Below, in pieces: positions 31,845-43,592 of a stretch of DNA of 54,704 nucleotides. A program made the position numbers and the translations under genes. Each line of letters opens with the position of its first letter. Position 1 is the stretch's first letter. The DNA is from Treponema sp. GTDB taxonomy: Bacteria > Spirochaetota > Spirochaetia > Treponematales > Treponemataceae. The notes beneath the pieces are model-generated. The model did not search any database. It saw only the letters and a program-made list of their open reading frames with translations, and was not told where the DNA came from. The stretch is taken from the NCBI RefSeq assembly GCF_024696245.1, contig NZ_JAILGZ010000057.1:1-54704 (forward strand). The letters run 5' to 3'.

Positions 31845-32246
31845 TTAAATACTGATAGATACAACAGCTCCGGCTTCCGGCATTATTCCGGCAAGTCCGT
31901 AGCTGCCTGTCTGAGCCTGGGCTGCTGCGGCAATTTCGCTTTGAATCTGCTGCTGGTACTGCTTTATAAGGGCATCCTTCTGTTCATCATTCATTCCCCC
32001 TATTTCTTCTTTTGTAAAGGAAGGGGTTTTCTTCATGTTTACAAGCTGGTTGATAAGGGTATTAAGAATGCTTACACGACTAACAGGAACGCCTCTCTGT
32101 CCTGGATCTGCTGCAATTCCGTGAACATAATCAAACTGAGAATAAATAACGGCACCAGGGCTGACCGGAACATTAAGAATTCCCCCGGAAGTATTGAAAA
32201 GAGATTTATAAGTTGATGCGTTTAAATTAATACCGTTACTAAACAT
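31845..32246 (-). CDS. Unknown small protein
   Basis: A 133-residue protein with a GAGGA Shine-Dalgarno. No signal peptide or membrane segment is seen. The middle is a helical, Lys/Glu/Gln-rich stretch (EEIGGMNDEQKDALIKQYQQ) that could form a coiled coil. The N-terminal part is Gly/Asn/Ser-rich with proline turns, and the C-terminus ends in a short hydrophobic strand (GAVVSISI). I do not recognise a family. It lies tail to tail with the permease gene, 5 bases away. Confidence 0.55.
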   Translation of the reverse strand: MFSNGINLNASTYKSLFNTSGGILNVPVSPGAVIYSQFDYVHGIAADPGQRGVPVSRVSILNTLINQLVNMKKTPSFTKEEIGGMNDEQKDALIKQYQQQIQSEIAAAAQAQTGSYGLAGIMPEAGAVVSISI

Positions 32247-41971: not shown

Positions 41972-42196
41972 TTACATGCTTTTTTTAAAGAGGGAGTCTA
42001 CTTCTTCCTGAGTAACGCGGCAGTTTGTTATGTCAGCAAGGGATGTTTTTCCTGCACGGGCTGTGTTTTTCTTTATATTGTTTCTTATCTTGCTGCAAAA
42101 ATCAGTAACAAGCCCAGAAGTCTTTTTTTCTTCGGCATGAGCCATAAAGAGCTTGTCCAGATCACTTTGAGAAAGGGAAATTCCTGCATCTGCCAT
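41972..42196 (-). CDS. Small protein with two FliM-N-terminus-like motifs
   Basis: A 74-residue soluble protein. The start at 42196 is set by CTGGAGG 6 bases upstream; an ATG at 42220 is less likely. Residues 8-17 read LSQSDLDKLF and residues 61-70 read VTQEEVDSLF. Both fit the LSQ-x-E-I-D-x-L-L motif at the N-terminus of FliM and FliY, the peptide that docks phospho-CheY. Between them lies a basic, helical linker (SKIRNNIKKNTARAGK). No flagellar gene is adjacent. Functional inference: a CheY-P binder, decoy or adaptor. Chance similarity of short helices cannot be excluded. Confidence 0.6.
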   Translation of the reverse strand: MADAGISLSQSDLDKLFMAHAEEKKTSGLVTDFCSKIRNNIKKNTARAGKTSLADITNCRVTQEEVDSLFKKSM

Positions 42197-42320
42197 AGGG
42201 GCCTCCAGTAAGGTCAGCATTTTTTAATTGCTAATTTTATATAATTGTAAGGCATAAGTCATTATAAAACAAAGAAATTTTTTCATAATGGAGAATTTAG
42301 CTGTAGAAGAAAAAATAAAT

Positions 42321-42350
42321 TTGACAAATTTAAATCAACACGTGTAAAAT
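42321..42350 (+). promoter_or_regulatory. Promoter of the sugar ABC/GH35 operon
   Basis: Consensus TTGACA (42321-42326), an 18-base spacer, TAAAAT (42345-42350). The leader of ~33 bases has GGAGG before the ATG at 42390. Confidence 0.7.
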
Positions 42351-42367
42351 AAACGTGTTGATTTAAA
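42329..42367. promoter_or_regulatory. Operator candidate: 15-bp perfect inverted repeat around the -10 box
   Basis: Arm 42329-42343 (ending CAACACGT) and its perfect reverse complement 42353-42367 flank 9 bases that hold most of the -10 box. A repressor bound here would block the promoter. The left arm also completes a self-complementary ACACGTGT (42338-42345). The cognate regulator gene is not adjacent. Confidence 0.75.
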
Positions 42368-42389: not shown

Positions 42390-43592
42390 ATGAGTAAAAG
42401 GTTCATATTTGTATCAGTAGTTTTTCTTGCTGCTCTTGTATGGCTTTCCATGCCTGAGTTTAAGGAAAAAGATGATGGTAAGACAACAATAACTGTCTGG
42501 GAGTCTTTAGGTGGTCCTGATGTCTTTATAAAGCAAGCCGGAGAAGCTTATTCCCGTTTGCATCCGGATGTAAAGATTAAGTTTGTAAACGTAGAACTTG
42601 GAGATGCAGTAAGCCAGGTTGCCCTGGATGCTCCTGCTGGAGTAGGGCCTGATATTTTTGCAGCTCCTCACGACAAACTTGGTGAACTTTATAATATGGG
42701 CCTTGTATTTGCAGTAGAAAACCCTGATGAAGTTAAGGCAGCTGTTCTTGACAGTTGTTCAAAGGCTGTTTCATATAAGGGTACTATGTACGGTTATCCT
42801 GTCAGTGCAGAAACCTATGCTCTTTTCTATAATAAGGATTATATTTCAGAAGAAGAAATTCCTCTTAAATGGAGCGGACTTGTAAACTGGTGCCGTGACT
42901 TTAATGCAAAAAATCCTGGTAAATACGGTTTTATGATGGATGTAGGTCAGGGTTATTATACCATCACCTTTGCATCTAAAAACGGTAACAGGCTTTTTGG
43001 TAAGGACGGAACTGATTCAGAACATACTAACCTTAATAATACTGATGCTGTCCTGGGAATGTCCTTCTTTCAGGGGATGAGAAAAGCTATGCTGGATGTG
43101 CCTTCTGCTGACTTAAGTACTGCTACCTGTGACGATTCCTTCCGTTCCGGAAAAGTTGCCATGTATATTACCGGTCTCTGGAACGTAAAGTCTTTTGAAG
43201 AAGCCGGTATTAATTTTGGTGTAGCTGCTCTTCCTGCCTTACCTGGTGAAGATACTCCTTCTCCTTCTTTTAGTGGTACCCGTGCCATGTATGTAAGTGC
43301 TTTCTCCAATCACGAAAAGATTGCTGCAGATTTTGCAAAATTCCTTATCAGTCCGGAAATGCAGAAACTCAGGTTTGAAATTACCGGAGCCCTTCCTGCA
43401 ATTGATGTTACTGTAGAAAGTCCTTATATTGCCGGCTTCCTTAAGCAGCTGGACTATTCTTTCCCGATGCCTTCCATAGACAGAATGTCTTCTTTCTGGG
43501 CTTCTATGGATAGTGCTTCCAAGAATATATGGGAGGGGGCAGATGTTCAGACAGAACTTAATGCCTGTGACCATATCATTATGAGTAACTGA
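42390..43592 (+). CDS. Sugar ABC transporter substrate-binding protein, MalE-like
   Basis: A 400-residue extracytoplasmic solute-binding protein. N-terminal hydrophobic segment FIFVSVVFLAALVWLSMPEF lacks a lipobox Cys, so it is either cleaved and soluble or stays anchored by this helix, unlike the other binding proteins of the window. The mature part has TTITVWESLGGPDVFIKQAG, GVGPDIFAAPHDKLGELYN, YGYPVSAETYALFYNKDYI and GKVAMYITGLWNVKSFEEAG, which match maltose/oligosaccharide binders. It heads an operon with two permeases and a GH35 enzyme, so a galactoside is the likely ligand. The ATPase must come from elsewhere. Confidence 0.88.
   Translation: MSKRFIFVSVVFLAALVWLSMPEFKEKDDGKTTITVWESLGGPDVFIKQAGEAYSRLHPDVKIKFVNVELGDAVSQVALDAPAGVGPDIFAAPHDKLGELYNMGLVFAVENPDEVKAAVLDSCSKAVSYKGTMYGYPVSAETYALFYNKDYISEEEIPLKWSGLVNWCRDFNAKNPGKYGFMMDVGQGYYTITFASKNGNRLFGKDGTDSEHTNLNNTDAVLGMSFFQGMRKAMLDVPSADLSTATCDDSFRSGKVAMYITGLWNVKSFEEAGINFGVAALPALPGEDTPSPSFSGTRAMYVSAFSNHEKIAADFAKFLISPEMQKLRFEITGALPAIDVTVESPYIAGFLKQLDYSFPMPSIDRMSSFWASMDSASKNIWEGADVQTELNACDHIIMSN

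Follow-up and report, generated by a model that had tools for sequence, protein, structure and literature searches.

A small gene in a Treponema sp. genome encodes a 74-residue protein with a short docking motif at each end, of the type that begins the flagellar switch proteins FliM and FliY. Judged from its sequence, the protein probably binds CheY, or FlhG, away from the motor; on the fuller reading, that it is a bivalent docking protein in the chemotaxis or flagellar system, small and for the most part unfolded, and would bind phosphorylated CheY (CheY-P) in competition with FliM and FliY, our judgement is evenly balanced. The window analysed is the Treponema sp. contig NZ_JAILGZ010000057.1 (assembly GCF_024696245.1; 54,704 nt), and the source genome (labelled G000) comprises 2.66 Mb. 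The full 74-aa translation, read from window position 42196 to 41972 on the minus strand, is MADAGISLSQSDLDKLFMAHAEEKKTSGLVTDFCSKIRNNIKKNTARAGKTSLADITNCRVTQEEVDSLFKKSM, and its features are collected in Table 1. Re-reading of the open reading frame (ORF) placed both motifs and the 43-residue linker exactly where an earlier note on this DNA had put them. The note had also described the linker as lacking any other recognisable domain, and the Pfam and NCBIfam searches of the 74-aa protein, which returned zero domains, agree with it; a PDB search with the same protein gave no credible match.

Table 1. Positions of the 74-aa gene and its features in the window.
Feature	Position	Strand	Description
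74-aa ORF, including stop	41972..42196	-	No domain; an EIDAL/LSQ-type docking motif at either end; orthologue at the corresponding place in G001; purifying selection
N-terminal motif LSQSDLDKLF, residues 8-17	42146..42175	-	FliM/FliY N-terminus-like; pattern match and conservation in 10 members
C-terminal motif VTQEEVDSLF, residues 61-70	41987..42016	-	CheZ-tail-like (AGVVASQDQVDDLLDSLGF, PDB 1KMI); pattern match and conservation
43-residue basic linker, residues 18-60	42017..42145	-	Poorly conserved; weak central helix at residues 28-48
Shine-Dalgarno GGAGGC	42201..42206	-	4 nt ahead of the ATG; GGAGGC also before the start in G001

The ORF is a real gene under purifying selection, since its DNA differences from the orthologue in G001 fall 13, 9 and 45 times on codon positions 1, 2 and 3, respectively, and the Shine-Dalgarno sequence is retained there together with the reading frame. 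G001 carries the sole close relative (74% identity, same genomic place), and the comparison gave a dN of 0.18-0.23 with a dS that was saturated or about 2. These selection data largely refute the idea that the gene is a decayed, functionless remnant of a FliM/FliN-like paralogue. Two-motif FliN-like proteins do exist in relatives and the family is patchy, but with the strong third-position bias, the kept Shine-Dalgarno sequence and motifs that stay intact in distant members of only ~20-35% identity, we give the idea next to no credence.

For the genome scans, the motif was written as [hydrophobic][ST]Qx[DE][hydrophobic][DN]x[hydrophobic][LF] and back-translated to degenerate DNA, and the reversed pattern served as the control. 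The presence of two motifs in a 74-aa protein is far above chance: when the protein was shuffled 1,000,000 times, 12 shuffles contained one match and none contained two. The whole 2.66-Mb genome held four matches, namely the N-terminus of FliM (LSQDEIDQLL), the N-terminus of FliY (ISQEEIDALL) and the two in the 74-aa gene, and the reversed control gave none in the same genome. Across 89 genomes of the genus that were at least 90% complete, the pattern was matched 299 times (median of 3 per genome) versus 23 times for the reversed control, and among the matches listed a FliM-FliY pair lay ~1 kb apart in nearly every genome. The assignment of both segments to the FliM-N type in the earlier note is upheld; both are EIDAL-type motifs, with L or V replacing I.

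Structure prediction by AF2 with a nine-row alignment gave a low-confidence model (mean pLDDT 61, pTM 0.26) with helices at residues 10-21, 28-48 and 63-70; both motifs were helical, the linker had a pLDDT of ~53-64, and no compact fold was seen between the motifs. Such a model is compatible with a chain that lacks a stable core and docks through two helices, but is too weak to prove it. If the motifs were instead ordinary helix starts with S/T capping in a small folded domain, the likeness to FliM and CheZ would be convergent. Single members of the family do match unrelated small domains weakly, e.g. DUF1456; this explanation nevertheless appears very unlikely, given the extended model without a fold, the unconserved linker and the genome-wide rarity of a pattern whose matches are mostly FliM/FliY pairs.

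Stand-alone relatives were collected by a profile search of ~200 genomes of the genus, which found nine members, all with E below 1e-20. A tenth (G121, L163) was added by the pattern search and scored E 1e-20 with the final profile, itself built including this sequence. The ten members, one in each of ten genomes and all from one Treponema-type genus, are 67-86 aa long and have a motif within roughly the first 20 residues, another within roughly the last 20 and no other domain. These features define what is named in this analysis the two-ended EIDAL small-protein family, and the 74-aa protein shows all of them. The profile was also run over 393 genomes of the phylum, where the further matches were a GntR-like frame (G181, L133) and five places outside the genus; the latter sit inside open frames of 353-605 aa, aligned mostly to the N-terminal part of the profile, and most are presumably FliM/FliY-type N-termini. 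Stand-alone members are thus seen in one genus only, as the remaining matches in the phylum are a three-motif GntR-like frame and these long frames. Frames of ~460 aa from the profile search were trigger-factor-like and were discarded as chance or unrelated, as were most weak matches of the single-sequence search. Single-sequence scans of genome contigs and of viral contigs found no relative, as its divergence puts the family beyond the reach of peptide patterns, and the viral scan gave no evidence for a virus origin. Being present in ~10 of ~200 genomes of the genus, the gene is dispensable for motility in general.

That the motifs would be conserved in homologues, with their loss as the preset refutation, had been put forward in the earlier note, and the profile search across spirochaetes answered in its favour: both motifs were kept in all ten stand-alone members and the linker diverged (mean column entropy of 0.94 bits for motif 1, 0.89 for motif 2 and 2.25 for the linker). 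E. coli FliM contacts CheY through L6, Q8, I11, D12 and L14 (contact table of PMC3774744), and these positions correspond to conserved columns in both motifs of the ten members. The Q at the Q8 position is invariant in both motifs; the I11 position is L in every motif 1 and V or L in every motif 2 (V in eight of the ten); the D12 position is an invariant D in motif 2 and D or N in motif 1 (N in three of the ten). The contact table does not list positions 9 and 13; both rank with the most variable positions of motif 1, as does position 13 in motif 2. The two motifs differ consistently in all ten members, motif 1 always reading xL[DN] and motif 2 E[VL]D. Motif 2 resembles the C-terminus of CheZ, ASQDQVDDLLDSLGF, as read from PDB 1KMI, and matches the CheZ tail better than it matches FliM.

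Comparison with the known systems showed both likeness and difference. The N-terminal segment of FliM (E. coli MGDSILSQAEIDALLNGDS, CheY complex PDB 1F4V) is matched in the motif, in the CheY-contact residues and in the location within the first 20 residues. FliM, however, continues into the middle CheC-like and C-terminal SpoA (PF01052) domains of the C-ring, both missing from the 74-aa protein, which unlike FliM has a second motif at its own end. FliY of the same genome (MSEGSISQEEIDALLSGVD) shares the N-terminal motif, whereas it is a protein of ~400 aa in relatives with a SpoA (PF01052) domain. The CheY-binding tail of CheZ shares the C-terminal position and [ST]Q-x-x-V-D-x-L-[LF], a likeness in sequence only, but the four-helix-bundle phosphatase body of CheZ with its catalytic Gln is lacking (no Pfam CheZ match, variable linker), and the source genome has CheX in place of CheZ. 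A dedicated phosphatase was ruled out on the ground that the linker has no conserved motif. The motif itself is already known; searches of open-licence papers turned up no description of a protein made almost entirely of two such peptides, the first like FliM and the second like CheZ.

Several other treponemal proteins carry more than one such motif. In a set of FliN-domain proteins (L051, L054, L056, L059 and L165), two LSQ motifs likewise occur in one small protein, but they are ~30 residues apart, N-terminal and followed by FliMN_C (PF01052, 1.5e-9, tested on the L054 protein). Their genes lie outside the main fliM-fliY cluster, and the proteins are possible alternative switch components. 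A 539-aa frame with a GntR-family-like start (L133, G181:C36) has three LSQ-type motifs at ~50-residue spacing, L164 (G120:C31) encodes a FliM-like protein with two motifs, and L166 (G073:C12) encodes two neighbouring proteins in which two motif-like segments accompany a body of no recognised type. At L164 and L166, further FliM-like paralogues cluster within a few kb with other proteins bearing one or two EIDAL motifs. An N-terminal LSQ motif was also seen in frames of 213-269 aa (L039, L040, L041, L048, L139, L152 and L167); their body is FliM-middle-like by eye, and a Pfam search with one of them (L040) gave no match. Single-motif proteins of 215-225 aa were likewise judged FliM-middle-like, again with no match in Pfam.

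Because multi-motif proteins of FliN-like, FliM-like and GntR-like type occur in the genus, the 74-aa protein can be viewed as a broader theme of treponemes reduced to its minimum. Tentatively, and with slightly more doubt than confidence, we propose that the stand-alone proteins are bivalent buffers or bridges of CheY-P (or FlhG) that combine a FliM-type and a CheZ-type peptide, within a treponeme-specific multi-motif expansion rewiring chemotaxis output. The same two- and three-motif proteins of other architectures (the FliN-domain set, L164, L166 and L133) could instead point to a general docking adaptor, in which EIDAL-type modules link FliN-, FliM- and GntR-like proteins to one receiver-domain partner that they share outside the motor, with the 74-aa protein bridging two unlike partners, as its consistently unlike motifs (xLD versus EVD) would allow. 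This alternative is unlikely, however, since only FliM, FliY and the 74-aa protein match the pattern in G000, leaving no sign of a further multi-motif partner in that genome.

The genomic neighbourhood varies among the members. In G000 and G001 it is a solitary minus-strand gene, flanked by an araD-like aldolase gene (PF00596) and a sugar ABC operon. In four genomes (G018, G069, G086 and G196) it comes shortly after a gene for an SBP-like lipoprotein and is followed by a 129-aa gene, and in another four (G198, G028, G130 and G121) it has other, differing neighbours. In G000 and G001 the pair of SBP-like and 129-aa genes lies ~10 kb off on the same strand with the small gene absent between them, which suggests that the gene was locally displaced from its ancestral site. 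No chemotaxis or flagellar operon was found around the gene in any member genome inspected. A conserved operon was rejected as a guide to function, as the neighbours differ between genomes and the 129-aa gene is widespread without the small gene: of 118 related genomes in the order, 98 carry it, frequently directly after an SBP-like lipoprotein gene. Its product in the window (31854-32234, minus strand; homologues L060-L089) had no Pfam or NCBIfam match. Separately, an inverted repeat, TTAAATCAACACG-N11-CGTGTTGATTTAA (window 42330-42366), lies upstream of the sugar-ABC operon, whose start is at 42390; the repeat is mostly identical in G001 and is probably the operator of that operon.

Binding of CheY by the EIDALL motifs of FliM and FliY is established, and the source genome encodes CheY, CheX, FliM, FliY, FlhF and FlhG, with cheX adjoining cheY. 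The CheY is motor-type, its closest solved structure being Borrelia CheY3 (3HZH, E 1.9e-49). On its docking face, Y106 and V108 are identical to E. coli CheY and the changes of I95 to V and K119 to R are conservative; some E. coli contacts are lost, as A90 is G, A99 is L and K122 is A. The FlhG gene lies beside that of FlhF, and the closest solved relatives of its product are FleN/FlhG. In other bacteria the MinD-like ATPase FlhG is reported to bind the N-terminus of FliM, or FliY (PMC12826062), a contact made during C-ring assembly. As the genome encodes both proteins, CheY and FlhG are two credible partners, FlhG being the main rival to CheY.

Were FlhG the partner rather than CheY, the two peptides could engage both subunits of an FlhG dimer, withhold FlhG from FliM/FliY and so tune flagellar number or placement. 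Two motifs would suit the ATP-bound dimer, and the genomic setting beside FlhF is also in keeping with this reading. We consider it rather improbable all the same, as the second motif is CheZ-like and motif conservation follows the CheY contact map, the comparison having been made with the CheY map alone. We know of no link between CheZ and FlhG.

The CheY reading is favoured because the pattern is confined to FliM, FliY and both ends of the 74-aa protein, because the conserved positions are the CheY contacts, because the CheY docking face is partly kept, and by the CheZ-like second motif and the modelled helices on both motifs. It is weakened by the lack of a chemotaxis or flagellar operon, the N at the D12 position in three of the ten members, the altered CheY contacts, the binding of FliM N-termini by FlhG as well, and the patchy presence of the gene. 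With CheY as the partner, each terminal peptide would fold into an amphipathic helix when it docks on phosphorylated CheY at the alpha4-beta5-alpha5 face; the peptide at the N-terminus would dock in the fashion of FliM/FliY and that at the C-terminus in the fashion of the CheZ tail. The protein would then compete with FliM and FliY for CheY-P and keep one or two CheY-P off the motor, by which switching would be lowered or delayed; alternatively, it might bridge CheY-P to a second receiver. CheY binding, its dependence on phosphorylation and the effect on switching are what we infer from these comparisons.

In the usual view, motor proteins read CheY-P, and phosphatases or phosphate sinks remove it. 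If the proposed role is true, a free two-peptide protein would be a different way to control how much active CheY there is or where it resides. This may be important to cells that have periplasmic flagella and must coordinate two motor sets. With its two peptides, the protein would also be a clean system in which to find out which of CheY-P and FlhG the FliM-N segment reads, or whether it reads both.
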